Positions 648 through 51,542 of a DNA stretch of 64,000 nucleotides are shown here, in pieces. Position 1 is the stretch's first letter. Every line of letters starts with the position of its first letter. The position numbers were made by a program, and so were the translations under genes. The DNA is taken from positions 971,146-1,035,145 of the forward strand of contig NW_014575558.1 of the NCBI RefSeq assembly GCF_000708205.1, written 5' to 3'. Under the pieces are notes generated by a model that was not told the DNA's origin, did no database searches, and saw only the letters and a program-made list of their open reading frames with translations. The DNA is from Mixia osmundae IAM 14324 (taxonomy: Eukaryota; Basidiomycota; Mixiomycetes; Mixiales; Mixiaceae).

Positions 648-1406
648 ATGCTTTTTGCTCGACTCGTCGCCATTCTATCGACGATCCTGCCTGCATCAGC
701 CATCGTCGTACGAACATACTGCTTCTCGATTGCTAAAGAAACGGCTGATTGCATTTCGACATGCATGCCGGGTGATGCTACATGGATCATGGAGACCTTT
801 GTCTCCAGAGCTCTCGTTCATGTGCGCGTCGAGCCAAGCCGCTTCGAGGCAATCGCTGCCCTCGTGAGCAACTCGCATACGCTTGGATCACATTTTTCCA
901 ATCCTTTGCTTGTCAGACAGTGTATGGTCCATCTCGGCCCGAGTTCACGATGACGCCTGCTAGCTTGAGTCCCAGTACGGCAAGCTACACGCTCCGGATC
1001 AAAATGCCAGGAGCTATCAGAGAAATTCTCGTGCCTGGCGATGATGAAGCTGCTCGACTCGAAAAAGCCTGGCTCGGAGCTTGTTGCTCGGTTATCCTGG
1101 AAAGCAAGTTTACGCTCGGATTCACCGAATCGTTCATGATTGTCGGTCGACCGGGCGTGTATGTTCATTGCGGTCAAGGCTCAGGAAAGATCCGTCCGGA
1201 TTTCGATTGCGAATCGAAGCGAGGTGGGTAGACTCAAGACGTGATCAGTTCGGGCGCTGATGTGTGGTTGTTGACGAGCAGTCATTGCAGAGTGTCAGAC
1301 GACGGCAGAAGCTCATTGCGGGATCGCCAGAACGAGAGGCGCGCGAGAGGGCGGCTTGTGCGCTTGGCAGCCTTACTTGGTCCCTCCCCCGCACTCTACT
1401 TCGTGA
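648..1406 (+). CDS. Secreted 12-Cys family protein (dispersed member, divergent)
   Basis: The ATG at 648 opens a signal peptide (MLFARLVAILSTILPASA). Modelled introns are 864-916 (GTGAGC donor) and 1224-1290, both keeping frame, with the stop at 1404-1406. The protein carries the family blocks in order: an N-terminal Cys cluster (YCFSIAKETADC), the central segment TPASLSPSTASYTLRI followed by GACCSV in place of the usual DCC, and a C-terminal Cys segment. Sequence identity to the 19-28 kb array is low; membership rests on order, cysteine spacing and intron placement. It is followed at 170 nt by another member on the same strand. Function unknown; probably extracellular. Confidence 0.6.
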
Positions 1407-1575: not shown

Positions 1576-2379
1576 ATGCGGATCTTGTGCCCGATATCAC
1601 TCGCCATCCTTTCATTCGTTTCTATCGCTCAGTCGCCGAGACCGCCGGCGGGAAAAAGACTCTTCTGCTTACAAGTCAAGCATTGCTCGGTCATCTGCAA
1701 TGGCCTCATAACGGACAACCGGGGCGAGCGTCTCTATTTCTGGGGCAGCGATCCTCTCGATGGCTATCTCATCCAACTTGACTTGTTTCCGAGCGCTACG
1801 ACGAGGTATGGCGCCTCCTGTAAATTGGTCAGTCCTACAACATTTTTCTGGATCAGGACACCCAATGCATAGTGTCCACAGCCCGAGGATCAGGTTGCAC
1901 CTAGCGAGCCTGTGTGCTCTGCTCGGCCAAAGGAGCTGCAACCTTCTGCTGCTATCTACAGTGTACGCTTGCGAGCAGGCCTTGTGCCGCTTGCACTGAG
2001 CAGTCGATCGGGTAAGCTCAGGGACCGCATTCGAGCTATGGGGACTCAGTAGAAAGCGTGCAGACGAACATGCAAGATGCTGCAAGATCACGAGGCTACA
2101 TCGGTTCGATCTGTCATTCTACAGTCGAACGATGTCAGAAAACAAACTTCCTCAGATTGATATCGAGTGTGGTCCAGACACGGACCCCGAAAAGTCATGC
2201 ATCGACGTCTTCGCCACACCGGGCATGCGTGCTTCTGCTTCACGAATGCGGTTTCTGATGATCGCGCAGTTTCTGCGACCTGTGACATCGTCGGCGAGTC
2301 TTGCAAGCTCGAGCCATTCATGAATCGAAGAAGCCTATTCCTGTCTCGCTGTCCACTCCCGAGCTCGGCAGTCGCTTGA
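1576..2379 (+). CDS. Secreted 12-Cys family protein (dispersed member, tentative exons)
   Basis: It starts with a signal peptide (MRILCPISLAILSFVSIAQS), then FCLQVKHCSVICNG, which matches the array consensus CxGVQSCIVNCxG in spacing. Downstream pieces in several frames give LQPSAAIYSVRL (central SPS...Y block) and SCIDVF plus CDIVGESCKLE (terminal block). At least three introns are needed; the first probably uses GTATGG at about 1806, and the last may run from about 2228 to 2268. I could not settle every boundary, so the span is better supported than the exact protein. A pseudogene cannot be excluded. Confidence 0.5.
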
Positions 2380-8226: not shown

Positions 8227-9029
8227 CTATCTGGACCTATGCGCAAGTCCTCCTGTTACTGTTGTCAAGGCGGCAGGCGAAAGAGGCCATTGACACCTAT
8301 TCTCACGACGGGTGAGGGAAGCCAGCTGGCAATCGCCCTGTTGGATTTGGCATGCATAGGTCTTGAGCTGCTCGGCTTCTTCCGAGCCGGATTTGCATAC
8401 GACGCCAGCGATGGTCGGTTTGCCGTCATTGCGACATTTGAACTCGAAGAATGGCTTGTCGTTTTCGAGTGTTACTGGTCTGAATGAGCCCCCATACTCT
8501 GCAGCGGATCCGAGGCGACTCACGGTTGATGAACCCCCACGTCATATCGACGTGGTAGTAGAGATCACAGCAGCTCAGGACAAAGTTGACCACATTTTGA
8601 GTGTCGCCAGTCACTTTGAATGGCGTGTCTCTGACGCCGGTCATGAAGTAGTAGAGCTCACTGGGCGTCTGTATCATATCCCTGATGGTACATTTGGGAT
8701 TCCAATGATTTGGCCCCTGTTGCGACTGCAGACTGTCTTAGCCAAATCAACCATCGCGATCTATCGGCCCCGACCATGCACGAGGCAAATAGCTTGCCAG
8801 AAGGCAATGGTTGCTTCATTCGTGCTCGGAAGATCGTCTGAGGTGACGAGGCTGTGACTGCAAAGAGCCCGAGCTCGCCATTGGGGGCCTTGTAGGTGCC
8901 TTCACAACGAACTGCGCAGGACGAGACTCCGATGCAAATCTCGCCGCTCTTCTTGTCGGGACCGGGTGGTCGACCGGAACCGGACAGTGCAAAGTTGACG
9001 AGGAAAGGCAGCAGATATAGACGGGTCAT
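8227..9029 (-). CDS. Secreted 12-Cys family protein (dispersed member)
   Basis: Exons 9029-8782, 8732-8524 and 8474-8227 are separated by two introns of exactly 49 nt; all phases fit. The protein has a signal peptide (MTRLYLLPFLVNFALSGSG), ICIGVSSCAVRCEGTY, then a segment (PQTIFRARMK) fused into exon 1 that is a separate microexon in the array genes. Next come HWNPKC, TPSELYYFMTGV, SCCDLYYHVDMTW and a terminal Cys block (FKC, VVC, YAC, GDC). A C-terminal extension of about 25 residues is absent from array members. A shorter 25-nt option for the second intron is also in frame but less likely. Confidence 0.75.
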
Positions 9030-9203
9030 GAATCAGGTTGTCAGTCGCGGAACACACAGGATGTCGGCTCCATAGGGGTCCAACGTGTCAATTGATTTCT
9101 ACCCCTCTATTGCCGAAAACGATCAGAGTCCGGGGTGCACGCGGCCATAGCCGAATCAGCAACGAGTCTGTTCGCTTCTGTGCTGCCTACTGTAGAAGCA
9201 AGT

Positions 9204-10625
9204 ATGCCGGGCACGTTCACCATCGACACTGTCGTCTCACTGTTGGACAAGTACCCTTTCTCGCCAGCGGGAGCGACAGTCATCTCGCTGTTGCTGTGGA
9301 ACAAAGCACGACAACTCTCGGCTTATGAGCTCACTTTTGGTCAATGGCTCAAAGATACCGCCTCGGCGAGAACGAAAGCGTATCTCGCTTGGGTCTTCCT
9401 CAAGACGCTCAATCGAGTCGTCGTGAGATTGATCATCAATCGGGGCTGGAAGCGTGATCGTCCTGCCTGGACAAGCGGCAAGGAGGTCATTGTCATCACG
9501 GGAGGCAAGTGGCAATGATACCTCATTCGCATAAGCACGAACTGATGAGCTTGTCACAGGCGCTGGAGGTATTGGTGGTGCCTTGGTCGATTTGCTTAGC
9601 AAAAAGACTAACAAAGTCGCCGTGCTTGACTTGGGACCACCCACTTATAAAGCTCGTGCGTAGATTCCAATGTAGCTGACCATGGTGTTGATGAGTATGC
9701 AGGCAATGTCAACTACTACAAGTGCGACGTATCGAGCGAAAAGCAAGTGGCCGAAGTGGCCAAGCAGATCCGTTCAGATGTAGGGTGCTCGACGCAAATC
9801 TACAGACACAGGCCTGACGCATGCTCAACAGCTCGGCCATCCTACTATCCTCATCAACAATGCCGGTATCGCTCGTGGCGAGACCATCATGAATCTGTCT
9901 GCGCAACAGTTCATGAAGACGTACAAGGTCAACACGCTCGCTGCATTCATCATCATCAAAGAATTCATTCCCCACAGTCCGTGCCTTTACTAGCCAAGGA
10001 GATTTGTGCTGAACCGGATTGGGTCGTAGTCATCAAGACAAATCATGGTCACATCATGACGGTGGCCTCTTCGGCATCGTATGCCTCGATTCCCCAACTG
10101 AGCGAGTACGCTTGCAGCAAGTCTGCTGTACTCTCGCTTCACGAAGTCCTTTCATCCGAGCTCATCCATAGGTATGCGCATCCACTCGCATGGCATATCG
10201 GCCTGCTGATGCATAGACAGATACAATGCCCCGCGCGTGCGAACGAGCGTCATCTGCCCGACCAAGGTTCAGACGAACATGGGCCAAGCGATGGAAGACC
10301 ATCCATCTCAGTTCTGGACACCTGTTCTGACGCCGCAAGAGGTGGCAAAGGAGATGTTTGCGCTCATCGACTCTGGCCTGAGTGGCCACAAGGTCATGCC
10401 GCTCTATGCAAGCCTCATCTTGCCCTCTATCCGAGCCTTGCCCGAATGGCATCGCTTCGTCGTCAATACTGTTGGTTTCCTACGTATCTCACTCCGCAAG
10501 AGCAGCTGACGCGTTGATGACAGGCGGGCAAGACGCACGAGACCATCACCGACAAGCGAAATGCGAGCATCATGGAGGATTACCGCAAGAAGCTAGCAGA
10601 GCAGGACGAGAACAAAGACGACTGA
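9204..10625 (+). CDS. Short-chain dehydrogenase/reductase, RDH10-like
   Basis: About six exons encode an N-terminal hydrophobic segment (GATVISLLLWNKA) and a classical SDR domain. The Rossmann motif TGGAGGIGGAL is split by intron 1; the NNAG motif (LINNAGIARGE), the catalytic Ser region (GHIMTVASSASYASIP) and YACSK (YxxxK) follow, then SVICPTKVQTNM. The family (membrane SDR16C/RDH10 type) oxidises or reduces alcohols or ketones on retinoid-, sterol- or lipid-like substrates with NAD(P); the substrate here is unknown. Intron 1 (9505-9559) begins GCAAGT, a clear GC-AG intron because the split glycine codon must rejoin. The ATG at 9204 is the first in frame. Confidence 0.88.
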
Positions 10626-17889: not shown

Positions 17890-18837
17890 TCAGAAACTAG
17901 CTTTGAATGAAAGATCAGCTCGATTCATGCTCGCGAGAGACGTGTGGACGCACAAGAGTGAACCGAGAAGTAAGCCGCCGGCCATGCCGCCCATGAGAGG
18001 CATGCCCATGCCCATACCGCCCATCCCCATACCGCCGCCATAGCCACGACCATAGCCTCCGCCATAGCCATAGCCGCTCCTGCGATAGTAAGGATCGCCA
18101 GGGGCAGCATAGCGCCCGCCAGAATAGTAAGGATCATAGTAGCCACCCTGCTGTTGCGGTGGCGCTCTGCCTTCGCGGACGGCTTTGTAATACTCTTGCT
18201 CCTGCGCACGCTGCTGCTCGATCATCTTCAGCCGTCGCTGTCGGTGGGCTTCGTAGAGCTCGGCTTCGCGCTTGCGAGCTGCCTTGCGCTTCGCTTCTCG
18301 TTCGGCATGGGTCGAGTTGGTCACCTTGTCCTTGATCTTCTCGCCCAGACCACGTTTCCGGTTGGGATCGTACGCTGGCTCGGCCTGCTTGCTCGAAGAG
18401 GCTTGCTTGCTCGACCCCTGTGCGGGCGCTCTCTTCCTGACCGGCTGTGGCCCTGCAGTGGGCACGCTGTGTCGCTCGGTATCCGGTAATGACTGCAAGT
18501 AGACCGGATCGTCGTAGGGGTGCGTCCAGATTGATCGAGGCGGATTGGCCTTTGTGTCGACATAGAAGTGATGGCCAGACTTGCTGTCCATCTGCCTGAT
18601 CCATCCCTTTGGCAGTTCCCTCAATTCGTCCTCCATCGATGCACGCCTTTCGAGAGGAACGACGCTCTCGTAGCCTGCAATCGTGCTGTTGTCTTCCTCG
18701 TCGGTAGTATGACCGTCATTGCTCGTGCTCGCCGTCATGCTCGACGACAGCGCCGGTGCAAGTGAGCTGGAGCCATTGGAGGCCTCGTAGGCAGGCGGTG
18801 CTTCACCGGGCGCAACCTCAGGCACGCCTTTCGCCAT
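17890..18837 (-). CDS. WW domain protein with Gly/Tyr/Met-rich tail
   Basis: 315-residue ORF. A single WW domain lies at residues about 75-108 (LPKGWIRQMDSKSGHHFYV ... IWTHPYDD) with both signature Trp residues and the closing Pro. Then follow a Ser/Gln linker, a basic helical stretch rich in Arg, Lys and Glu (about 170-225), and a tail of Tyr-Gly-Gly and Gly-Met repeats. Fungal WW proteins of this layout bind Pro-rich partners; the exact role is unknown. The last 20 or so residues look unlike the Gly-Met tail and may be intron or readthrough. Confidence 0.75.
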   Translation of the reverse strand: MAKGVPEVAPGEAPPAYEASNGSSSLAPALSSSMTASTSNDGHTTDEEDNSTIAGYESVVPLERRASMEDELRELPKGWIRQMDSKSGHHFYVDTKANPPRSIWTHPYDDPVYLQSLPDTERHSVPTAGPQPVRKRAPAQGSSKQASSSKQAEPAYDPNRKRGLGEKIKDKVTNSTHAEREAKRKAARKREAELYEAHRQRRLKMIEQQRAQEQEYYKAVREGRAPPQQQGGYYDPYYSGGRYAAPGDPYYRRSGYGYGGGYGRGYGGGMGMGGMGMGMPLMGGMAGGLLLGSLLCVHTSLASMNRADLSFKASF

Positions 18838-19050
18838 CGTTGGGTGTCTTCTGCTGATATGCTCGGCTGTAGAGAGCTTCCGATGTCAGCAAGGATAGAG
18901 GCTGTGCGAATGTGGCCGGGTACGCCAAGGATGGCTGCTGATCTGAACGAGACCGCTATCAAGAGCGATGCCGTCATCGCGTGTGCCATCTGCGGGTCAA
19001 CTGTGGCAAACGCGGCGAATGCAGTAGCGAACAACATGCAACTGCCGGCC

Positions 19051-19728
19051 TCAGAGGCTCGAAATCCTGCACATGTTTTCCCTCATCTTGATACCGATGA
19101 CTCGACAGCCTTCGATGATCTCGCAGAGCCGTGGTGCTGGTGCTTTGGGGAACCAGTGGGAGCACGGGCGACCAGCGGCAATGACGTCCGGGCGCGACAG
19201 GCAGAGCAACCGCACTTGCTCATCTTTTGCCAGGCTGACTGCAGCTAGCGATCGTCAGCACTGGACTGTATGTGCAGTGATGGTCCGCTCACGCTGACGA
19301 GGGGCTATGACTGACAAGTCGAGACCAACGCCGAGAACGACTTCGCAGCACCTGGCCGTGATCGCTTGTACTCTATCAGAGGTCGAGCTCGTCCGGCTGG
19401 GCAAGATCTGAAGCGCCTCCACGACAAAGTCGGCAGAATCGGGCGTCATTCTTGCTCCTCGCAGGGTACATTGAGGCGCATACTGCAGTCCCTCGGCTTT
19501 GCACACCACGTTTTCTTGCCCTTGCTTGCCACCATACTCGAGGCTCAGTCTGAAGGCTGACGGCGTGACTTCTGCTGCCTTGACAAAGGAAACATCGGTC
19601 TGGGTGCCATCGCTATAGCTACCTTGACAGGTAGCATAGCAGCGAAAAGCCAGGCAGAAGTCTGCCTTCTCGAGACTTGCGGCAACTCCGAGAAGGAGGC
19701 CGAGCAGGATCAAGAAAAGGCCGAGCAT
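19051..19728 (-). CDS. Secreted 12-Cys array gene 1 (intron-poor)
   Basis: First member of the array by coordinate, most downstream in transcription. Exon 1 is 19728-19293, one intron (19292-19239, 54 nt), exon 2 is 19238-19051. The signal peptide is MLGLFLILLGLLLGVAAS. Cys blocks: FCLAFRCYATC, VVCKAEGLQYAPQC, ARCCEVVLG, RLLCLSRPD, RPCSHWF and LCEIIEGCRV. It lacks the introns and microexon of the other array genes: SAFRLSLEYGG runs straight into VVCKAEG. The terminal CEIIEGCRV is closest to the dispersed gene at 45.7 kb (CEVIEGCRV), so it may belong to an older subfamily. Confidence 0.8.
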
Positions 19729-19865
19729 GACGATAGGATCAGTGGGGGGACTGCGCAGACTCTGACGCGAGGGGATGTTGCACCACGAGATCAGTCGCCA
19801 CGCAGGCGTCGCTCAGTCCCCTGTGATACCACAAGAACACCTTGCTCATCATCAAACAAAAGTAG

Positions 19866-20665
19866 CTATGAAGAACTCGATCCATCTCTGAATTTGCAAC
19901 CTTCTGCGGTCCCTATTGCACTGGTCACTGCGCAAGCGTCGTCCATCTCCCACAACTCGCATCCAAAAGTTTCTTTTGCTGCGAAGAAGTCGTTACACGT
20001 CTTTCCTTCGAACTTTGGAGATCTCGACCGCGATGTCGAACAAGTCAGTCTTATGCTGGGCTGCGTCGCATCGACGTCGCCTGCCAAGCCGATCAGTAGG
20101 AACTACCCACGAGAATCAAAAGGTGATTCACCGGAAGGGAAAGCCCACACCATCTTTGTCTCCCATCTCACATCACAGCAGTTTTGAATCGCTGCAACGA
20201 TCTCTCTCGAGCTGCCTTGGACATGCTTCTGAAATATTGTCTTGGCATCGACTTCGTATACGATCCCAGAGGGCGACATCCTTGAGCTGATATGCCAGCA
20301 GTCTGGCAGCCATGGCTGGTCAGCTTCCTTGACGCAGCTCAATTCGGGCGCTCCTGCTTTCCACGCAAGATGAGACATTCCCGCAAGCCAATTGAACATC
20401 TGCTGGCCTTTGCCATCTGCGGCCTGGACTCGTCCACGGAAGAGCGTTTTCGCTGCAGCGCACGTCAGGGCCAGCTGGTATACAGATTTATCTACGAACC
20501 CGGTCCGGACAGGGTTTTAAAGGTCGATGGCGTTAAGCTGTCGTACAGGGTGTAGGTGCCGGCGCAGATGACCGTACACGATTGAACGCCCACGCAGAGC
20601 TCGTCATGGTTCCGTGGTGGCGCGACGATCAAGACGACCAGATTCAACAGTACTGCGAGCAACAT
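19866..20665 (-). CDS. Secreted 12-Cys array gene 2
   Basis: Exon 1 20665-20500 (signal peptide MLLAVLLNLVVLIVA, then LCVGVQSCTVICAG), intron 20499-20453, a 39-nt microexon 20452-20414 (KTLFRGRVQAAD), a GC-AG intron 20413-20354 (donor GCAAAG), and exon 3 with LSCVKEADQPWLPDC, RMSPSGIVYEVDA, VQGSSREIVAAIQNCCDVRW. A last GT-AG intron leads to DVDATQPSIRLTC and TFGCELWEMDDAC, ending at 19866. All phases agree with the paralogues. It looks intact. Confidence 0.85.
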
Positions 20666-21227
20666 CTTGCAGAGCGGCTGCACCTTTGGAGGGGTCGTGT
20701 GATCCCAAATTTCATAAAAGCGCGACAGAATCCACTTCGAGACGGGTTGCCGTGCAGCATTGACAACCATTGGCGTTCTGTCTCCGCAGACTCCTGGCGT
20801 GGCATGAGAAGCAGCCCTCGCACCACAAAGACACCGATGCATCGCTTCTGCAAACAATGCATTAGACCCATTCACATCACGTGCAACGAAACCCGATTCG
20901 CGCCGTGTTTGACCGAGAAGCGCTCGATGCTCCTGCTGTACACGATCTATTCACACTCGATTCCGGACTTGCTGCGGGCTGACTGTGTGCTATTCATCCA
21001 TCGACGTTGGCTAAACATAATTCTGCGTCGTCAAGATCGAGCTTGGTCTAGAGGAAGCCAATACTCATACTCAAGCATGCCTTTTTGAATCAGCGCACAG
21101 TAGAGCGGCTAGTCCGCCGTTGCCACATAGACCCATGCAAGTCTCGTAGGGTCTGCTCGGAACGCATACTTGTCAAAACACCCGGTCGGAGACGACGCAA
21201 TGCAGCCATCACTATAAGTACAGCTAT
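20666..21227. other. Intergenic spacer in the array (genes 2-3)
   Basis: About 560 nt between the start of array gene 2 and the end of array gene 3. Small frames occur but none carries a family block, signal peptide or supported splice. Presumed promoter of gene 2 and 3' flank of gene 3. Confidence 0.45.
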
Positions 21228-22021
21228 CTACGAGCTTTCTGATAGCCTAAAACGGCAGCCATGGCCTGTTCGTTGCTCTGATGACAGAGCGCAGCTGTCG
21301 CCATCTTCGTCCAATTCGCAGCTGAAAGTGGTTCTCGCAGCGAAGGAGTCTTGACATTGTGTCCCGGTCCTGAGGGAGGGGATTGTCACGGCATTCGTGC
21401 AACGGAGAATGAAAGTAGGCACTGTTGCCGCAAAATTGCCCGCTGATCGAATCAGTCAGTCTATGTCGGGACAGATACGACTTCAAAAGTACCTTTGCCA
21501 GGACGCCACTCCATCCGCGCTTGCCATGTCAACTCACAGCAATCCGATATTGCCGCAACAATCGCCTCTGAGCTGCCTTGAACGAATTTCTCAAAAGTCG
21601 CAGTGGCGTCCACGACATAGTCTCGTTGAGAAGGCGACATCTCCGACTTGACGAGCGAGCATGTGGGCGCCCATGGCTGATCTTTCTGCTTGTGACAGTT
21701 CGCATAGAGGACTCCTGTTCAAGGCAACGCTCAAAGCTGGTGTCTGCCGACGGTGATAGACTTGACATACCTTTCACAGGCTGGAGAAGGGCGCGAAAGA
21801 GTGTCTTGGCTGTACCATACTGTCAGAACGGCAAATACAAGGGAATTACACCAACTCGGCCCTGAATAGACCCGAAATGCCGACGGCGTGGATGCGCCGG
21901 GTACGACGTGCTGCCCAAAACAGTTGACTATGCATGACTGAACGCCGATGCAAAGCTCGCCCAGATTTCTTGGCGGAGCGACGGCAGACCCAACCAGAGC
22001 AAGGATCAATGTGAGCCACAT
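21228..22021 (-). CDS. Secreted 12-Cys array gene 3 (recent duplicate of gene 4)
   Basis: Signal peptide MWLTLILALVGSAVA, then LCIGVQSCIVNCFG and STPSAFRVYSGP. A 39-nt microexon (KTLFRALLQPVK) follows, then a GT-AG intron (GTATGT), CHKQKDQPWAPTC, EMSPSQRDYVVDA, FVQGSSEAIVAAISDCCELTW, another GT-AG intron, and PTFILRCTNA, QCQDSFAARTTFSCELDED, CALSSEQRTGHGCRF. Twelve cysteines can be counted in the mature part. The sequence is nearly collinear with gene 4 in coding, intron and upstream parts. It looks intact. Confidence 0.87.
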
Positions 22022-22356
22022 CGATGAGAGCGCTCGAGCAAACTAGATGACTTTGTCTGAGAGGGTATGCGGCACAACTCACCTTCACCACCGTTGACTT
22101 GCCCCTGGCATGGGCCGAAGACCCTGTTCATCTGACGCGATCTGGCAGCCCTTCCCTTCGAAAGGAGAGCTGGAAACTGACTGGGGATGCCTGAACGGTC
22201 AACGCGACCATCAGACCCGGGACAGAGACAGAGGACCTAGAGAAGTGCGCGTCGCGCTTTCGGGCGCAAAGCACCGATGCATCGATGCGGCTGTCAACCT
22301 AAAGCGCAAGCATCGCAGCGTCCTTCCGCAAGATCCTCGAGCTGTGTTACAGTTGC
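21228..22356. repeat. Duplicated segment, downstream copy (gene 3 plus promoter)
   Basis: The array gene 3 body and about 330 nt upstream of its ATG match the block at 22786-23906. The first 55 or so nt upstream are almost identical (GATGAGAGCGCTCGAGCAAA and onward); similarity continues in patches, including GAAGTGCGCGTCGCGCTTT near 22239 and CCTCGAGCTGTG near 22334. Offset is about 1.56 kb. Confidence 0.8.
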
Positions 22357-22785
22357 CACGTAGGCGTCGCTCGTTCCCCCGACGAACGACAAGAATGCCT
22401 GCTCATCATCAAATCAAAAGCAGCATAACTCGAATCAGCTCTGGATTTGCGCGGAGAGACTGCAGTAGGAGAAAATATCCTCGGGACCCGCGCACGTCTC
22501 GTCTTCCACGAGGTGAGGACCCGCTACGCAAGCTCGCCGACAGTATCCAGACACTCTAGCCGGGCTCAGCTCCATGAAGATCGAGCCGTGTTCACATCGA
22601 GACCAACACCAACGAATGAAGCCTGCCTCCGCTATGCGAGCGGGGGCAGCGAAGAAGGGCTTGCGCACCGGTGCTGCTATGTCCATTCAGACTCGAGCGA
22701 CTCACATAGCTTGCTCATAATGCATGCGTATCAGTCATGTGGTCAAACGAGGCGCAATGCAGCCAACAATGCTAAGGCAGCTGTT
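22357..22785. other. Inter-copy spacer with unexplained Cys-rich frame
   Basis: This stretch separates the promoter of array gene 3 from the end of gene 4. A minus-strand frame at 22686-22435 encodes about 83 residues with several cysteines (GYCRRACVAGPHLVEDE), but without start context, signal peptide or the family's Cys spacing. The TGCTCATCATCAAA block near 22405 also occurs upstream of array gene 1 (about 19840), so part of the spacer is repeated intergenic sequence. It may be a decayed remnant. Confidence 0.35.
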
Positions 22786-23580
22786 CATGAGCTTGCTGAC
22801 TCTCGGAAACGGCAGCCCTTGCTGACTCGTTGCTCTAGCGACAGAGCGCAGCCGTCGTCATCTTCATCCAGTTCGCAATCGAATCTGGTCTTCAGACCGA
22901 AGAAGTCTTGACAGCGCGTCCCGCTCCTGGTGGACGGTATCGTCACGAGATTCGTGCATCGGAGGCTTAAGGTAGGCTCTGTTGCGGTAAAGTCATTCGC
23001 TAATCGACTTCATCAGTCCATATCGGGAGAGGCAGATCATCAGAACATACCCCTTCCAGGACTCCACTGCATTTGCGCTTCCCATGTCAGCTCGCAGCAG
23101 TCGGAGATCGCCGTGACGATTATGTCTGAGCTGCCTTGGACGAATTTGTCCACAGTCTTTGTGGCGTTGACAAGATACTCCGTCTGAGAAGGCGACAAAT
23201 CCGACCCGACGAGCGAGCAGTTCGGCCACCACGGCTGACCTTTCGACTGGTGACAGTACGCATTGGGGACGCCTGTACGATTCGACGCTCAAAGCTCTGT
23301 GTCTAGGGACGTTGCCAAGCACGACGTACCGTTTATATTCTGAAGTAGGGCGCGGAAGAGTGTCTTGGCTGACTGTTCCATCAGAACGGCACATGCAAGG
23401 GAGATCACACGCACTCGGCCCTGCATAGACCCGGAAAGTCGATGGCGCCGATGTGCCAGGTATGATGTGCTCCCCAAAACAGTTGACTATGCATGACTGA
23501 ACGCCGATGCAAAGCTCGACCAGATTTCTCGGCGGAGCGACGGCTGATCCAGCCAGAGCAAGGAACAATGTGAGCCACAT
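22786..23580 (-). CDS. Secreted 12-Cys array gene 4 (recent duplicate of gene 3)
   Basis: Signal peptide MWLTLFLALAGSAVA, LCIGVQSCIVNCFGEH, STFRVYAGP; a 39-nt microexon (KTLFRALLQNIN); a GT-AG intron (GTACGT); CHQSKGQPWWPNC, DLSPSQTEYLVNA, FVQGSSDIIVTAISDCCELTW; then FTATEPTLSLRCTN, RCQDFFGLKTRFDCELDED, CALSLEQRVSKGCRF. It has the same exon plan as gene 3 and differs by scattered substitutions. It looks intact. Confidence 0.87.
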
Positions 23581-23906
23581 CGATGAGAGCGCTCGAGCAA
23601 ACTAGATGACACTGTCTGAGAGGGTATGCGGCAGACTTCTGCCCTTGCCCTCACGACCGTTGAGCAGCCCCTAATATGGGCCGGATACCGTGCTTGTCTG
23701 GACGCATGCTGACGTTGTCCCTCCGATAGAGCTGGAGATCGATTGAGGATGCCGGTATGGTACCCGCGACGATCAGACCAGAGAAAGAGATAGAGAAGTG
23801 CGCGTCGCGCTTTTGGGCGCAGAGCGCCGACATGCAATGTGGACAGCCACCCAAGCGCAAGCATCCCTCCGCAAAATCCTCGAGCTGTGACATGGTTGCC
23901 AGACGC
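22786..23906. repeat. Duplicated segment, upstream copy (gene 4 plus promoter)
   Basis: Counterpart of 21228-22356. Shared upstream landmarks include CGATGAGAGCGCTCGAGCAA directly before the ATG (minus-strand sense), GAAGTGCGCGTCGCGCTTT near 23796 and CCTCGAGCTGTG near 23878. Confidence 0.8.
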
Positions 23907-23940
23907 AGGCGCTCTCTATGTACGGCTTGCAATGAGAAGT

Positions 23941-24739
23941 CTACGCCGAGCTTGCTTCCGTGATGAAGTGGCAGCCGTCAGGGCCTCTCCTCTCCTTTGA
24001 CAAGGCGCAAGTGCCATAGCCGGCGAGCAATTCGCATCTGAAAGGCACTGCTTGCTCGAACAGCTCTTGACATGACTTTCCTTCGCTTCTGGAGTATCTG
24101 GTCCGATCGTTCGAGCATCGCAAGACAAGAGTAGGCTCTGTTGCATCGAAATCGCCTGTGAGATTGGTCAGTGGCCCGTGTTTCGCGAGGGTTTGTGCGG
24201 ACCCCAGGTAAGGTCCCAAGTCATCTGTGCTTCCCACTTCAGATCACAGCAGTCATAGACTGCTCCGACGATGGCATGTGAGCTGCCTTGAACGTGCTTG
24301 TCGAACTTCGTTTCAGCATCTATGATGTATTCGATCGTCGAAGGTGACGATCGCACATCGATCACCTTGCAATCAGGACCCCACGGTTGGTCGCGCTGCT
24401 TGTGACAGCCCAAGACAATGCTTTCTGTTCGTGTCAAACTGTTTCAGAGCGAGGGGTGATGAGCGCAAAACTGCCTTGCCTTCGTCACGCGCAAGCTGCA
24501 CTCGACCACGGAACAGTGTTTTATCTGGCAGCTACTAGATGAGGCTGATAGATTGCGGCGACACTGCGCTTACCCGGCGCGGAGAGAACCTCAAAGGCTG
24601 CTGGTGAGTCTGCGCCGCGCAGAATGTATGACCCGATGCAGTTGACGATGCATGACTGCACGCCTATGCAGAGCTGACCGGTGCTCTTTGGCGAAGCGAT
24701 GGCGGAGCCCACGAGGACGGAAGAGAGCAGAAGTAGCAT
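23941..24739 (-). CDS. Secreted 12-Cys array gene 5
   Basis: Start chosen at 24739 (MLLLLSSVLVGSAIA) to match the paralogues; an ATG ten codons upstream is also in frame. Exon 1 24739-24574 has the same 166-nt length as gene 2. A microexon (KTLFRGRVQLARDE) precedes a GC-AG intron 24479-24425 (donor GCAAGG). Then come LGCHKQRDQPWGPDC, SSPSTIEYIIDA, HVQGSSHAIVGAVYDCCDLKW, DFDATEPTLVLRCSND, SCQELFEQAVPFRCELLAG and CALSKERRGPDGCHF. It looks intact. Confidence 0.85.
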
Positions 24740-24987
24740 CAAGCAGGAGCGGATTTGCAGATAGAGCACGAAAGTAGAGATGCTGACGCGCCCAGCTCAA
24801 TAATGAGCGCTTTTTGGAGGAGGCTTCTGTCACGACGACGATGCTCCTAAACGTTGGCTCAGGGTTTCTGCGACGAGTGTCGTGATGACGACAGCCATTC
24901 CATCGCTGTGATGGGAACAGAAAGCAAGTATTCGACATGGTTGATTGAAGACGCGCGTGATAAGACGATAGGTTGCAATGCGCTCAT

Positions 24988-25788
24988 CTATTGCGGGCTG
25001 GCGAGCGATCTAGGTTGACAGCCATTCTTTGTCTGTAGCTCTTGTGACAGTGCGCACGTGTCACCCATTTCGTCCATTTCGCACTTGAAAGTCACCTTTT
25101 GTCGGAAGAAGGCTATGCAGCTGAGATTGTAGTAGCTGGAATATCTCTTCTTGGCATCAGTGCATCTCAGTGCAAAGGTTGGCCTTGTCGCAGCAAAGTC
25201 ATCTGACGATTGGATCAGGAACGTGCGCACTCGAACCTCAGCTTTCCGAAGGTACCTCTGCTGTAATACCATAATATCCGGGCCTCCCACTTCAGGTCGC
25301 AGCAGTCTGCAACGGCGGCAACGATTGCAGCTGAGGTGCCTTGAACGTGCTTTTCCATGATCGCGCTGGCGTCCATAACGTATTCGATGTTGGCCGGTGA
25401 CATCTGAGAACCGACAAGCAGGCAGTCTGGTGACCATGGGTAGTCAATTTCCTTGAGGCAGGTCAAGCTAGGTATGCCTGCAGACGGCGAGGCTCAGATC
25501 TGTATCTACCGCGCGAATCGAACGACTCGCCATCGCTCGATATAGCCCGGACCCGTGCGCGGAAGAGCGTCTGAACTACCCGGACTGTCAGACAGGTATG
25601 TAGCTGCGTCTTATGAACGAACCCGGTCCCGAGAAGACTTCGAAAAAGGATGGCTCGTGGTCGCCGGGCAAAGTGAACGACGCAAGGCAGTTGACTATGC
25701 ATGACCGTACGCCCAAGCACAGCTCTTGGTTGCGTTTCGGCGGGGCGGTGACTTGCAGTATGAACGTGAAGAGCAAGATGTGCAGCAT
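24988..25788 (-). CDS. Secreted 12-Cys array gene 6
   Basis: Signal peptide MLHILLFTFILQVTA, LCLGVRSCIVNCLAS, SFFEVFSGP. The microexon is longer here (about 57 nt, VRVVQTLFRARVRAISSD) and is followed by a GC-AG intron 25530-25478 (donor GCGAGT). Then LTCLKEIDYPWSPDC, QMSPANIEYVMDA, HVQGTSAAIVAAVADCCDLKW, FAATRPTFALRC, FFRQKVTFKCEMDEMGDTC and ALSQELQTKNGC. It looks intact. Confidence 0.85.
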
Positions 25789-26234
25789 TGAGTCTGGTAC
25801 GCGAGTGTGCAGAGCAGATGACGTCTTTCGAGATTGTGTCGATCCACATGTTTGAGACGTGTCTTGACAACGACCATCTCCTCTTGATATGGATTCGCAC
25901 GAGCATCAATGAGTGTAGCTGTAGCCACGCAGGTATTCAAGATGAGGGCAAGTACGATTGATGAAAGTGCGTGATGACTGTCCGGGGGCACTCGGAAATC
26001 GTAGGAATGATCTTTTCTCGCCGGTCCGCATGGCGACAGATGTACAGCTGCGACGCGAAGTCGGCCGAGATCCATGTGATCAGCATGCACGCAAGCTAGA
26101 GCGCCAATGGGCCTATTTAGACCGTTGGCCGCGCCGGACTACGCAGAGCAGTGCGTGCAATGATCCACGCGAAACTTGGCTTCTTGCGAGTGAGCGAGGC
26201 CAGATTGCATGTGCTACATGCACCTTTGACAGGG
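25789..26234. other. Intergenic spacer in the array (genes 6-7)
   Basis: About 445 nt upstream of array gene 6 and downstream of gene 7. A minus-strand frame near 25965-25850 has a short hydrophobic run (SSIVLALILN) but no family block. Presumed promoter. Confidence 0.4.
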
Positions 26235-27035
26235 CTAGGACGAGCTGGCGCCGTCTGCAAAGCGACATTCGTGAGAGGCAAGGATCTCTCTCGTCAAGCC
26301 GCAAGTGTCGCCCATCTCATCCAGTTCGCAGTTGAAAGTGGTCCTCTTGGCGAAGAAATTGTTGCAGTTCTTGTCAAGATAGCTTGTATATCGCTTCCAA
26401 GCGTTCGAACAGTCCAGCACAAGTGTTGGTGCTGTCGCTGTAAAGTCATCTAGCATTGACCTCAGCAACACGATAGTCGGGCAGGTGCCAGATCTGACCT
26501 GCGTCAAGGTGCCAGTCCATGCGCGTCTTCCATCTCAGATCACAGCAATCGGCAATGGCCGCGACGATGGCGGTGGAGGTACCTTGGACGTGCTTCTCGA
26601 GGATCGCGCTGATGTCGACAATGTACTCGATCTTGGAAGGGGACAGTCGAGTTTCGACAAGTGTGCAGTCCGGAATCCATTGCAGATCGTGCTGCGTATC
26701 GCAGCGCAGCTCCAGAGAGCCTGCACCACTCGAAGCTCAGAGGAAGCAGATGAGCACGGCCTTGGAAGTCAGACTTGCCCTTTCTGGAGATCTGAAGCTG
26801 TTGAAGGAACAGCATTCGCGCTGTTCGAATGGTCAGGCCGACAAGTCTGTACGGCGCCGTACTGACCTGGTCCTGCGAAAACCTCGAAAGCAGATGGTGT
26901 GGCGGCGCCGCGTAAAGTGTGCGATCCGACACAGTTGACTATGCACGATTGAACGCCCACGCATAGCTCATCAGAGCCTTGCGGAGGAGCAGTGACCGAA
27001 GTGACCAGCAGGCCGAGTAGCGAGAGCAGCGACAT
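26235..27035 (-). CDS. Secreted 12-Cys array gene 7
   Basis: Signal peptide MSLLSLLGLLVTSVTA, LCVGVQSCIVNCVGSH, SAFEVFAGP. A GT-AG intron (GTCAGT) precedes the 42-nt microexon (RMLFLQQLQISRK); a GC-AG intron 26778-26721 with a perfect GCAAGT donor follows. Then LRCDTQHDLQWIPDC, RLSPSKIEYIVDI, HVQGTSTAIVAAIADCCDLRW, DFTATAPTLVLDCSNA, NCNNFFAKRTTFNCELDEM and CGLTREILASHECRF. It looks intact. Confidence 0.86.
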
Positions 27036-27360
27036 GCAGGAAAATTGAGTTTGCCGGGCTAACGACGATAGATATGCTATTGCCCAGTGATCTGTTTTTC
27101 GAGCGAATCTCTCCTGAAGCCTTGACGACCAGGGTTTCTTGTCTTGCACCGCTCGAGTATGATAGCAATTTGCAAGAGCATCGACGCAGGCATTGTCAAT
27201 AAGAGATGATGTGAATGACACACTCGTGGCGTCCGTCAGCAGGGTTCCGGCGGACGTACTCTCAACAAAGCTTGCCCACGCCACAGCGAATTTGCGTTCC
27301 TGTTGCTGAATTGAGAGGCAGCGCAATAAGTGCTTGCATTGCGTTCTCACTGCAAGCTCG
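27036..27360. other. Intergenic spacer in the array (genes 7-8)
   Basis: About 325 nt between the start of gene 7 and the end of gene 8 on the minus strand. No supported frame or repeat; presumed promoter of gene 7. Confidence 0.4.
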
Positions 27361-28144
27361 CTATTCGCTTGATATAACAATCATTGGGCGTTCGCAGCTC
27401 TTTAGCGAAAGCCCGCAGGTGTTGCCTAGCTCGTCCAATTCGCAAGTGTAGTAGACTGTTTCCCGAAAGAAGGCCTTGCATTTCCTTTTTTGATAACGAG
27501 TGACTCTTCCCCAGGCATTCGTGCATTTGAGAAAGAAGATAGGCTCCGTTGCCTCGATGTCACCTACCATGGGGTCAGAAGCGCAAAGGTGAGCCGACAT
27601 CGAGCCGATCGTACCCGTGTTGAGATGCCAGCTCATCTTTGTTTCCCACCTGAGATCACAGCAGTCTGCGATCGCCGCCACGATCATGTCCGAGCTGCCT
27701 TGAACATGTTTCTTCATGATCGCATTGACATCCACGACAAATTCGGTCCAAGACGGCGACATCCTGGATTCGACAAGCAAGCAATCGGGTATCCAGGGAA
27801 TACCGGTCCGGCTGGTGCAGCTCAAGTCGGGGCCTCCTGGAGACCGCAAGGTTTTTCAGGTTGGTCTACCTGACGTGGGCCCAGAGAGTCAACTCGCCAT
27901 CAGCTGCAGGCTTCACGGTGCTGCGAAAGAGTGTTCTTGCTGCGTTCGCTGTCAGACAAGCAACAAGGTGTGCAGAACTAGACGGACACGGCCCCGAGAA
28001 GACTTCGAATGACGATGGCGCATCAGTGCCAGGCAGAGTGTGTGTTCCAATGCAGCACGACTGGACACTCAAGCAAAGCTCGTGGGATGACTTGGGTGGA
28101 CCACAGACAGAGCCGATCAAGATGGGCAGCAATGCGAGCCACAT
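27361..28144 (-). CDS. Secreted 12-Cys array gene 8
   Basis: Most upstream member. Signal peptide MWLALLPILIGSVCG. The first Cys block reads LCLSVQSCCIGTH: compared with CIVNCIG in the paralogues it lacks three residues (IVN), leaving adjacent cysteines. A 42-nt microexon (RTLFRSTVKPAAD) precedes a GC-AG intron 27897-27837 (donor GCGAGT). Then LSCTSRTGIPWIPDC, RMSPSWTEFVVDV, HVQGSSDMIVAAIADCCDLRW, IEATEPIFFLKCTNA, KCKAFFRETVYYTCELDEL and CGLSL, ending near 27361 without the final GCRF. It diverges from pyruvate decarboxylase. Confidence 0.82.
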
Positions 28145-28458
28145 TGAGTTGAAGGGAGGGTAAGAATGCAGACAATACGAAACTTCGAGGTACTTTGTGT
28201 CAGCCCATAGTGTTTGACGAGGTCTTGACAACACTCCCGTTCGCTCGGAGATGAGTGAAGATCATCTGGACAGCGACGAGAGAGGAATGGGTGTGCAAGA
28301 GGCAGCAAAGCACAGACACATCTCGATGATGTCACTGCAACAACGTTTGGGGCACACAGAAGGAGCAGTAACGTCCGCGCTCCGCGCTTTTATATCGACA
28401 AGGCTTGCGAAGTTCGGAGCTCCCTTGACATCAACGAAGCCCTGCAGACCTCTCCAGC
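28145..28458. promoter_or_regulatory. Divergent promoter, array gene 8 / PDC
   Basis: 314 nt between the two divergent ATGs. A TATA-like TTTTATAT at 28388-28395 lies about 65 nt before the pyruvate decarboxylase ATG, a usual fungal spacing. A CT-rich stretch (CAGACCTCTCCAGC) directly precedes that ATG. No such box was seen toward the secreted gene. Confidence 0.45.
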
Positions 28459-30289
28459 ATGGTCGAAGATCTCTCGCTGCCCAAGCTGGAGCCAGGCAAG
28501 ATCACAGTAGCGGGCTACCTGCTCAGACGAATCCATCAGCTCGGTTGTCGGCAAGTGCTATCAGTTCCCGGCGACTTTACCCTCGCATTCCTCGATTATG
28601 TCGTTGATCCGTCGAGTGGACTGGAGTATGTCGGGTGTGCCAACGAGCTCAACGCTGCCTATGCAGCAGATGGTTATGCCCGCGTCAAGCAAGGTCTAGC
28701 AGCTCTCGTCACTACATTCGGCGTCGGAGAGCTGTCTGCGCTCAATGGCATCGCGGGCAGTTACAGCGAGCACTTGCCTGTTCTACACATTGTCGGCGCA
28801 CCCTCGACAAAGTTGCAGGGCAATCACGCCCTCCTGCATCACACGCTTGGTGATGGGCGCTTCGACGTCTTTTCCACGATTGGCAAGCTCGTCACCTGCT
28901 CGAGCGCCATACTCGGTGCAAAATCGCTTGCGAGTCCGAGCTCGATCAGTGCAGAGATCGACCGAGTTCTCGTCGAGATGATGACCGAATGCAGACCGGG
29001 ATACATCTCATTGCCGACGGACCTTGTGCCTCTTCAGATCGATGCTAAGCCACTCGAAGACGAATTGACGCCACAAAGCATTCATAAACACCTCACGACG
29101 TCCAGTGTGTCCGAAAAGGTAGATGCTGTCGTATGCACTGATCATGCAGGCTGACATGAGCGTGCAGATGGAAGACTTTGTGGTCAATGAGATTGGCAAG
29201 CTTTTCAAAGCTTCGCAACGCCCCATCGTACTCATCGATGCATGTGCGGTACGGTTCGGCGTACAGGATCTGGCTAAGCAGCTCATCGAAGCAACGGATA
29301 TCACATTCTTCACCACGCCTATGGGCAAATCTGCCATCAGAGAAGATCATCCTCAGTTCGGGGGCGTGTATGCAGGCGCGACATCCGAGGACAGCGTGCA
29401 AGCTCATGTAGAGCAAGCTGATCTAACAATCTCCTTGGGCGAAGTCCTGTCTGACTTCAATTCTGGCTCGTTCACGTATAACATCCGGCCTGATCAAGAG
29501 GTTAAGCTACATCATGGATACACGCAGATCCAATACGCCACTTACAAGGATGTCGGCTTTCACACGATTCTACCCAAGCTGATCAAATCACTGGGCGCGA
29601 TAGCAAAGTCTACAAAGAAAGAAAAGATTCCTCGACCAGAGAATGCCGGTCAGGTGCTCGAGCAACCCAAAGAGAACTCGGAGATCATTTCGCAAGATTA
29701 CTTCTGGCCCACAATGGGCAAGTTCTTTCAGGCAGGCGACATCATCATCGGCGAAACTGGCACTTCTTCCTTCGGGCTACTCGACGTTCAATTTCCGCCA
29801 GACGCGGTGTTTGTGTCTCAAGTCTTGTGGGGCAGCATTGGCTACACAGGAGGCGCCGTACTCGGTTGCTCGCTAGCTGCAAGAGAGTTAGGCAAGAAGC
29901 AGCGGACTTTGCTCTTCATAGGCGATGGCAGCTTGCAGCTGACAGCGCAGGAGTTCAGCACGGTCATTCGCCAGGATCTTCATCCCATCATCTTTGTGCT
30001 GAACAATGATGGCTATGCGATCGAGCGCTTCATACATGGCATGGAAGCCAAGTACAACGACATTCAGGGCTGGCAGTGGCAAAAGCTGCTAGAGCTTTTC
30101 GGACCAAAGGCAGGCAAGACGACCTCAGTGCGGGTTTCGACACGCACAGAGCTCGAGGCGCTCATAGCAGACGCATCGTTCGCTACGCTCGAGCAAACCC
30201 GTCTGGTCGAGGTCATCTTGCCCAAGTGTGACGCACCTCGCGCGCTAAGAAAGCAAGCCGAGCTGACCGCCAAAGCCAACGCGGACTGA
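28459..30289 (+). CDS. PDC1: Pyruvate decarboxylase
   Basis: Thiamine-diphosphate enzyme that turns pyruvate into acetaldehyde and CO2, the entry to ethanol fermentation. 593 residues from exons 28459-29118 and 29168-30289 with one 49-nt intron. Catalytic features are intact: Glu63 in ANELNAAYAADGYARV, the His-His pair at 127-128 (NHALLHHTLGDG), and the ThDP-Mg motif GDGSLQLTAQEFSTVIRQ ... NNDGYAIE at about 472-500. Length is slightly above the yeast enzyme. Indole-pyruvate decarboxylase is a close alternative but less likely given the HH/E pattern and full-length match. Confidence 0.93.
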
Positions 30290-36477: not shown

Positions 36478-37236
36478 CTATGCAATCTGAGGCGCAGGCG
36501 GGGGAGTCTTGCAGCCTGAATATGTAGTGGCGAGTTCGAAGACGGGCTGCGGCGAACGGATGGGACATGCGCCGTTGCCTGCACACCCGTGAGTTCCATC
36601 TTCAAGATGATATTGAAGCATGACGACCTTTCTGAGGGATGAGCTTTGCGCACTCGCCCCGTTCGCCTTCATCCTTTTTTCGGTAGAAGATCTCGTCGTA
36701 GTCGCAGCTCCAGCGAGCCTTCTGATCGTCGTATCTGAAGTCACCTGTGGCATGGCTCAGGCTGTCAGAAGATGATGGGCAGCGACGGGAGACTGACGAT
36801 CCGTGAGGCCCACATGAACGATAACCTCGTGGTAGACACGACAGCAGCGCTGTAGAATCGGCCAAGCGGGAGCAATCGGATTGGGCAGCAGCGTCATCGT
36901 CATGCGCTGGCTGACTTCGTATACGGCGTGCGATGGGTCGCCCTGTAGGAGTTGCGCACGGCATTTCACACTGCGGCCCTTGGGGCTCTCTTGGCATGTC
37001 GCTCCCCTCTTCAGCGTGGGATGGTTTGGCTTAAGTGAGATCATCACGACTGTTGGGTCTAAGAAGGCTTGCAGCGAGACCGGGTAGAACAGCGGGCCGA
37101 GCGAGGGCACAGGATCGCAGTAAACTGAGGTACGAGGCACGTAATCGCAGTAATTCCTCGTGGCGGCGGTGTGCGGAGCTAGCGCTGACGGTGCTTGATG
37201 ATGCAAGAGAAGCAGTACGTAGAGGAAGGCAATCAT
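36478..37236 (-). CDS. Secreted 12-Cys family protein (dispersed member)
   Basis: Signal peptide MIAFLYVLLLLHHQAPSALA at 37236. The long first exon runs through YCDYVPRTSVYCDP, TCQESPKGRSVKC, SHAVYEVSQRM and ILQRCCRVYHEVIVHVG. Intron 2 (GTCAGT...CCACAG) leads to DFRYDDQKARWSCDYDEIF and GECAKLIPQK; a further GT-AG intron gives GNGACPIRSPQPVFELATT and SGCK. The central block (SHAVYEV ... RCCRVYH) replaces the array's SPSxxxYxVDA ... DCCDLRW. It faces the sugar transporter across about 190 nt. Confidence 0.7.
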
Positions 37237-45690: not shown

Positions 45691-46390
45691 ATGGCTAGCC
45701 TCTTTCTACTGTCGGCTCTCTTATCTGCGAGCACGCATGCCATCGTGACTCGACGATACTGCTATGGCACATCCTCCTGCGCTATCCGCTGCAGCGGCAA
45801 AGTCTTTGACACCCCCTTCATCCTCGAAGCAGCCACGCCGCCGTATCTGCTCAGCCTGCGAATGAGTCCGACAATGTATGCTGTGTCCAAGGTCTCTTGT
45901 GTCTGTCAGTCGCATCGCTTGGCTGCTCAGCGCTCATGCTACTACGCAGAGCTCGATCCCGATCGGATTCAAGCCCTCGTGCTATGCAAAACAACGCAGA
46001 AGCAACCCGGACGCCGTATACTACAGTACCTGGGCCACCGTAAGCATGGATTCGACTATCTGGAGTACAGCTCAAGACGTGATCGCCGAATGTTGCCATG
46101 CCTCGCGTGAGATGGCCTTCATCACTGCCGTGGAACCTGGTAAGCTCATCGTTGTCGATCCTTCTCATTCAGGCTGAATTGCGATAGACGCATCGTCCTA
46201 TTCTTCCCAGACCTTCGAGGTAGCTTGCAATGCAGGGCCAGTCAAGAAGGTCTCCCCTTTTTGCGCACGTGTGTTCGGTCTCGATAGTACCATCGGACAA
46301 TGCGAGGTCATCGAAGGCTGCAGGGTCTCTCAGCAGTCAAGAGGGGGCCAGGATGGGGATTGCAGGTGGTTACCGGTCCATAGTCAGTGA
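45691..46390 (+). CDS. Secreted 12-Cys family protein (dispersed member)
   Basis: Exons 45691-45891, 45950-46139 and 46188-46390; introns of 58 and 48 nt keep phase exactly. Signal peptide MASLFLLSALLSASTHA, YCYGTSSCAIRCSGK, then PSCYAKQRRSNPDAVYY, AQDVIAECCHASREMAF, FEVACNAGPVKKVSPFC and QCEVIEGCRVS, ending CRWLPVHSQ. It has the family order with only two introns and no microexon. CEVIEGCRV is almost the CEIIEGCRV of array gene 1, which also lacks the microexon, so these two form a subfamily. Confidence 0.8.
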
Positions 46391-50665: not shown

Positions 50666-51072
50666 ATGACCGACGCAGCGAGCATTGAGACGGCAGACTC
50701 ACCGAAGCGCTCGATGGAAGCAGTCTCTGCCGAGCGCTTGCTTGCACATTTCAGTTTGACGCGGGCTGATGTTGCAAACACAGTATGCAGTCAACTCGCT
50801 AGTTTGCATCCGGCGTATACTCTGCACATTTCCGGCCTGCTGTCGGCCACCACTCGGCTCCGCATGGCATTCCGACAGGTATGGTGCAAGCTCGCGTGAC
50901 TGCATGAGGTAAGACAGAGCCTCGGTGGTTGCAGAGGCGACTGACTGATCTCTGGAAAAAATTGGGAACACCAAATTCGATGGTGTGGGTCGTCCGAACC
51001 CCGGAAGTTGTTAAAGTCACAGCGCATGTAAGCCGAGCGTCCCCGGTAATCAAGACTGTGGCTTCTCTGTAA
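50666..51072 (+). CDS. Possible small protein antisense to secreted gene
   Basis: Exons 50666-50878 and 50935-51072 (intron 56 nt, GTATGG...TTGCAG, phase 0) encode 116 residues: MTDAASIETADSPKRSMEAV, amphipathic helices (SAERLLAHFSLTRADVANTV), then RLTDLWKKLGTPNSMVWVV. It has no signal peptide or known domain. It overlaps on the opposite strand the last exon of the 12-Cys gene at 50791-51542. Frames and splice are consistent for both, so one could be chance. Confidence 0.4.
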
Positions 51073-51542
51073 GACTGCGCATGGGAGAGGGTATCGATTT
51101 ACTCTCTATCGAGATAGCCCAAGTCAAATTGATGGCTGACAAAGGCACGACAACAGTGCTTGATGGCCAACGTGCTAGCGTTGCCATCGTCAAGGATGTC
51201 GAGTTGCGTGTCTTGGGACATCCTGTAGATCATTTGTTGATCGGTCACGAGCGACAGGGTGGCCGCACACTTGACTTTCCGCAGAGACGGCTGAGTAGAA
51301 CAGGTCGCATGGGAGACCGGATACTGCTCAGGATTGAGAAACATGAGGATCATGCTCTCGGGCACGGTAGCCCGAATTCTGACAGCGTCGACCAGATGAA
51401 CAGGCCTGAGCTCATCACAGACCACTTCGCAAGCGTCAATGACGTCGCAGAACGTCCGAGTCGCAAATCTTCGCACGGCTAGTGACCGAGGGAATACAGA
51501 CGGGGTATACGACAGAGCAGGCAGCAGCAGACACAGGCGCAT
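50791..51542 (-). CDS. Secreted 12-Cys family protein (dispersed member)
   Basis: Signal-like start MRLCLLLPALSYTPSVFP at 51542. One long exon gives TFCDVIDACEVVCDE, ATCSTQPSLRKVKC, QQMIYRMSQDTQLDI and KHCCRAFVSHQFDLGYL, with no microexon or early introns. A GTAAAT...CCACAG intron leads to SAYMRCDFNNFRGSDD, WCSQFFPEI and LCLTSCSH. The order TFC/C/C, YxM, HCC, RC, C-x2-FF, LC...C follows the family. The 3' end is uncertain because of the antisense candidate; the stop at 50791 gives a longer Arg/Cys-rich tail than expected. Confidence 0.6.

Follow-up and report, generated by a model that had tools for sequence, protein, structure and literature searches.

A tandem gene array and a wider family of candidate secreted cysteine-rich proteins in the fern pathogen Mixia osmundae

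Eight adjoining genes on the minus strand of a contig of the basidiomycete Mixia osmundae IAM 14324 (NW_014575558.1, assembly GCF_000708205.1) belong to a family of small cysteine-rich proteins that has 44 recognised loci, a lower bound, on four contigs of this genome. The stretch that we analysed, hereafter the window, comprises 64,000 nucleotides (positions 971,146 to 1,035,145 of the contig), and the array runs within it from position 28144, the ATG of the first gene (g1), to 19051, the stop codon of the eighth (g8), which is exactly the span reported in a first-pass annotation made from the letters of the sequence. We give about even chances to the interpretation that this is a lineage-specific, tandemly expanded family of small secreted disulfide-rich proteins that are candidate effectors; for the effector role we rely on M. 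osmundae being a non-rust pathogen of ferns (PMC4071342) and on the size and cysteine profile of the proteins.

The array genes were modelled by hand, and a purpose-written spliced aligner served as a leave-one-out test on g1 to g7. Five of these seven models were reproduced exactly and the other two were off by one splice site. The genes from g1 to g7 each consist of four exons separated by three phase-1 introns at corresponding sites: g1 (27361..28144; exons 28144-27988, 27939-27898, 27836-27615 and 27563-27361), in which the splice site of the aligner was adopted to give 207 residues; g2 (26235..27035; exons 27035-26867, 26820-26779, 26720-26499 and 26449-26235), g3 (24988..25788; exons 25788-25623, 25575-25531, 25477-25256 and 25202-24988) and g4 (23941..24739; exons 24739-24574, 24524-24480, 24424-24203 and 24155-23941), all of 215 residues; and g5 (22785..23580; exons 23580-23415, 23368-23330, 23272-23051 and 22999-22785), g6 (21228..22021; exons 22021-21856, 21809-21771, 21714-21493 and 21442-21228) and g7 (19866..20665; exons 20665-20500, 20452-20414, 20353-20132 and 20080-19866), all of 213 residues. 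The exact reproductions include g2, g3, g4 and g5, and g7 differs at one splice site. The most diverged array member, g8 (19051..19728, 198 residues), has two exons (19728-19316 and 19234-19051), of which the 3' exon is less certain, being a manual reading where the aligner with the g1-g7 profile ended differently. The model of g6 equals an NCBI protein of the same strain, L969DRAFT_625724, letter for letter.

All array proteins (198-215 residues) have a hydrophobic N-terminus, and their 12 cysteine (Cys) columns are invariant in the eight aligned genes, so that the shared plan originally proposed is borne out. The motifs quoted for it are approximate: the first block fits six of the eight genes (g1 lacks three residues between Cys2 and Cys3, and g8 lacks one before Cys2), and there is variation in the DCC and CEL blocks of g3, g7 and g8. 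Identity among g1 to g7 is 43-52%, except in the sister pair g5/g6 (70%), and g8 is 21-28% identical to the rest. A profile built from g1-g7 matched g9, a gene of the window outside the array, at 5e-27 and g8 at 8e-12 (search space of 7000 proteins), E-values of models built with the profile-guided aligner being biased in their favour by that method.

The array of eight is confirmed, but the family is not limited to it. Six-frame searches of the genome (13.5 Mb, 19 contigs) for family members, the counts from which are minimal, and a final comparison of family profiles with 2841 open segments, drawn from the window and from seven other stretches of the genome, place 14 loci within the window (g1-g14) and 30 elsewhere, with 21 of the 44 on contig C6. 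The first 38 loci include, outside the window, four on contig C6 (912.6-917.8 kb), nineteen places on C3, and two each on C7 and C14. Subfamily A accounts for 13 of the 38 (g1-g9 plus the four C6 loci), subfamily B for 21 (those of C3 and C7) and subfamily C for four (g10, g11 and the C14 pair). Six more came from the final profile scan: three on the plus strand of the window (g12, g13 and g14) and three on C6 at around 910-919 kb. Because these six postdate it, the alignment and tree contain only the 33 complete models of the first set, with C3_457, C3_459, C3_461, C3_521 and C14a left out as incomplete. In the unrooted tree, for which the program issued a long-branch warning for C6a, g8, g9 and g10, subfamilies B and C each form one side of a supported branch; no such grouping is resolved for A. 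The most distant subfamily is C: the g1-g7 profile matched it with 10% probability, a wider A profile and B with 95-96%.

Common descent of the family is supported by a conserved phase-1 intron, which 31 of 35 modelled genes have at a distance of exactly 14 codons behind the CC doublet. The exceptions are both C7 genes (16 codons after the doublet), g8 (nine codons, phase 2) and g11 (15 codons, phase 2). Among the six loci found late, when read with the all-family profile, g12 and C6e have the intron at 14 codons in phase 1, C6f at 16 codons and C6g at 15 codons in phase 2; in g13 and g14 this place is without an intron. A second peculiarity of gene structure is the donor site of intron 2 in the array, which is GC in g1 (27897-27837), g2 (26778-26721), g3 (25530-25478), g4 (24479-24425) and g7 (20413-20354), all on the minus strand, and GT in the sister pair g5/g6 at the same site and phase; donors in g5 are GT throughout. 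GC donors occur in six of the 70 introns of the modelled genes, five of them being these and the sixth falling in an uncertain model, and such departures from the standard donor may partly explain why array genes escaped annotation. Intron 2 of the array also provides a small natural series for the study of GC-AG introns.

Across the family, 12 cysteines are not a defining feature: the full plan holds in all eight array genes, but across the wider family members carry 8, 10 or 12 of them (and two uncertain models fewer). Cys 1, 6, 7, 8, 9 and 12 are present in all 33 complete members, Cys4 in 32 and Cys5 in 31, and the variable positions are lost in matched pairs. Cys3 and Cys10 are both present in 26 of the 33 and both absent in seven, and the states of Cys2 and Cys11 agree in 32, the exception (C6a) being an alignment slip, since its sequence has Cys11. 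Gene counts in such a comparison differ from event counts. In that the absence of Cys3 and Cys10 is confined to one clade, it points to one loss event; the absence of Cys2 and Cys11 is found in subfamily B and, separately, in g10 within subfamily C, and thus implies, on this tree, two events or more. The co-loss suggests that Cys2-Cys11 and Cys3-Cys10 form disulfides, and the matched losses supply testable predictions of them. Two members depart from the plan elsewhere: C3_517 is without Cys4 and Cys5, but its model has an extra intron exactly there, and C3_510 is without Cys5 and has kept Cys4, which speaks against a Cys4-Cys5 pair. The alignment contains one conserved CC doublet and no second, and the family differs in this from hydrophobins, which have eight cysteines and two CC doublets.

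Substitution patterns show that the proteins are constrained. We estimated the ratio of nonsynonymous to synonymous substitution rates (dN/dS) over ten pairs, of which nine gave defined whole-gene values (0.12-0.43; g1/g2 was undefined). For three pairs one or more of the methods failed, and dS exceeds 1 in four of the nine. In the other five, where dS is below 1, whole-gene dN/dS is 0.18-0.43 (e.g., 0.38-0.43 for g5/g6), showing that selection on the less diverged pairs is purifying on average and that there is constraint at the protein level. Paralogues farther apart go back to old duplications, and their dS is high or undefined. Fast divergence, which the first-pass annotation had taken as typical of proteins that interact with a host or niche, finds no support here as an adaptive sign. 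In one pair (C3_511/512) the first 20 codons, taken alone, gave 1.01.

These data also bear on whether the loci are genes at all. That 22 of 27 members used as queries have no protein record, and that some loci resist full modelling, would fit decayed or chance open frames that are not expressed; however, dN/dS below 1, invariant cysteines and a conserved intron, as well as the agreement of annotated proteins with our models of g6, g9 and a C6 gene, make this already disfavoured explanation very improbable. Among the loci without full models, C3_457, C3_459, C3_461 and C3_521 are possibly decayed or cut by the ends of the stretches analysed.

The protein searches gave no hits outside Mixia. 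When 27 distinct members served as query rows against 5.8 billion proteins, the profiles hit five, all from Mixia: g6, g9, one C6 gene, g11 and a partial record in which exons of two C3 genes are mixed, so that five of the 27 are recorded. A restriction of hits to one lineage, offered in advance as a sign of a new family, is thus what the searches gave. That the family was unrecognised also agrees with Pfam, in which no match was better than E = 0.011: the best values were 0.072 with eight members scanned and 0.011 with 12, each from a single member, the cut-off being shown for one family only. Sequence profile searches of the PDB gave nothing better than 0.06. In the accessible portions of their texts, two comparative studies that include Mixia (PMC4071342 and PMC4759460) do not describe these proteins, and the family appears to be undescribed within the literature searched, although its kind is well known in plant-pathogenic fungi. 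As for the records themselves, L969DRAFT_515488 holds most of g11 and differs from it at both ends, having an earlier start and reading through the last g11 intron; the record seems to omit that intron and to add an upstream stretch. The record L969DRAFT_29568 combines exons of two neighbouring C3 genes, and L969DRAFT_49961 is the third C6 gene save for three extra N-terminal residues. A scan of viral contigs yielded 21 stretches that fit the pattern, none of which was confirmed, and a weak match on contig C1 showed no family frame on inspection.

The proposal that the array proteins are secreted agrees with their N-termini, which are signal-like by hydropathy: in the 33 complete models the N-terminal maximum over nine residues is 1.49-3.48, and the strongest later segment of 19 residues reaches 1.66 (C3_561). 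No anchor-like segment was found at the C-terminus of the complete models, in which the highest nine-residue mean hydropathy of the last 25 residues is 1.63. A signal-like N-terminus, with no clear second membrane segment or anchor, would lead to release from the cell. The missing anchor argues against structural or adhesive proteins at the surface of spores or cells, a role into which the restriction of search hits to a single species might fit, given the unusual morphology of Mixia's spore-bearing cells; we consider such a role quite unlikely. AlphaFold2 models of two members that are about 28% identical (g6 and g9) have the same order of elements, and in the predicted body of the protein eight strands would precede a single helix that leads into the CC doublet, with another six strands after it and as many as six disulfides holding the whole together. 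In our preferred interpretation as effectors, the family would have expanded by tandem duplication in M. osmundae, and its products would act in the apoplast of the fern host, where candidate effectors could bind host molecules and different copies would present different surfaces.

The family resembles the species-specific small secreted cysteine-rich proteins of fungi, which have been defined by a length of at most 300 residues, a signal-like segment, more than 3% cysteine and restriction to one species (PMC4759460). The models are at most 234 residues long, within the limit of 300, and 12 conserved cysteines per 198-215 residues place the array above the 3% minimum. The family stands apart from that class in its lack of a credible Pfam match and in that most of the tested members are without a record in the protein collection searched.

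A more specific possibility is that the fold is shared with the fungal effectors SnTox3 of Parastagonospora nodorum (PDB 6wes) and protein D, a defoliating toxin of Fusarium oxysporum f. sp. vasinfectum (PDB 9fei), having diverged past recognition by sequence and acting on host cells in a similar way. It would place an old ascomycete effector fold in a basidiomycete fern pathogen, carried there by 40 or more clustered genes that are spread over four contigs, that have gained or lost disulfide pairs as whole units and that, for most of the tested set, are unrecorded in the protein collection; this we think improbable. Many unrelated structures align with the models over similar lengths, which lowers the odds of a shared fold, and in our view such kinship is doubtful. 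SnTox3 was absent from the PDB profile matches up to E = 10 with the A1 and A2 queries, and it is not among the 50 Foldseek matches listed for the g6 model. Protein D is 7% and 4% identical over the alignment, with Z in the background range. The pro-domain of SnTox3 is cleaved by Kex2 (PMC8528282); in the array the first cysteine lies at about residue 24-25, and seven of the eight genes have no KR or RR before it. The Mixia proteins also differ from SnTox3 in having up to 12 cysteines. More generally, no PDB structure matched the g6 model in Foldseek at E <= 0.001, and no MAX, RALPH, ToxA-like, KP6 or FOLD effector was among the matches listed.

Several points weigh against the interpretation as secreted effectors of a single lineage. 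The protein search depends on five-residue words in common and on comparable length, and may have passed over distant relatives or fused annotations. Whole-gene averages of dN/dS give no sign of positive selection, and the 350 bases upstream of the starts of g1-g11 (without g5, which nearly duplicates g6) contain no exact shared 7-mer or 8-mer in excess of what shuffled controls gave. The proteins are apparently secreted, as judged by the hydropathy profile only, and internal 19-residue segments of C3_561 (1.66) and C3_462 (1.64) are near the level often taken for membrane spans. The alignments given to AlphaFold2 were shallow (23 and 25 rows, mostly exon fragments). Finally, the sequence is just as compatible with a role in the yeast phase or in the environment. 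In a separate alternative, the proteins would be antimicrobial or killer-type agents that the yeast phase directs against competing microbes on fronds, and small, secreted, cysteine-rich, tandemly duplicated proteins would suit it too; the lack of a credible match to any Pfam family counts against it, and we hold it to be unlikely.

To our knowledge, little is known of effector biology on fern hosts. A secreted family of 44 loci, mostly unrecorded among the tested members, would alter the count of candidate effectors for M. osmundae, and it offers a concrete set of genes with which to ask how a fungus infects a fern.

The remaining loci of the window are spread on both sides of the array. On the minus strand, g9 (8227..9029; 234 residues; introns 8774-8726 and 8523-8475) is identical to NCBI L969DRAFT_95252; g10 (36478..37236; 218 residues; exons 37236-36798, 36744-36628 and 36578-36478) is a subfamily C gene with 10 cysteines, Cys2 and Cys11 being absent; and g11 (50799..51542; 216 residues; exons 51542-51103, 51055-50946 and 50899-50799), also of subfamily C, has the 12 conserved cysteines. 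On the plus strand, g12 (45691..46390; 200 residues) has 12 cysteines and two introns, g13 (1576..2379) is a family locus with an uncertain model and unsettled splicing, and the model of g14 (648..1231) is incomplete at its 3' end. The three late C6 loci, on the minus strand at about 62-872, 1324-2174 and 8877-9839 of stretch L051, have provisional models. The nineteen places on C3 lie at 450-464, 510-523 and 561 kb (L053 and L072-L080), some on the other strand. Beside the array, a thiamine-pyrophosphate enzyme is split over two open frames on the plus strand (28429-30289), and the minus strand at 17890-18885 encodes a protein with a WW-like stretch that falls below the Pfam cut-off.

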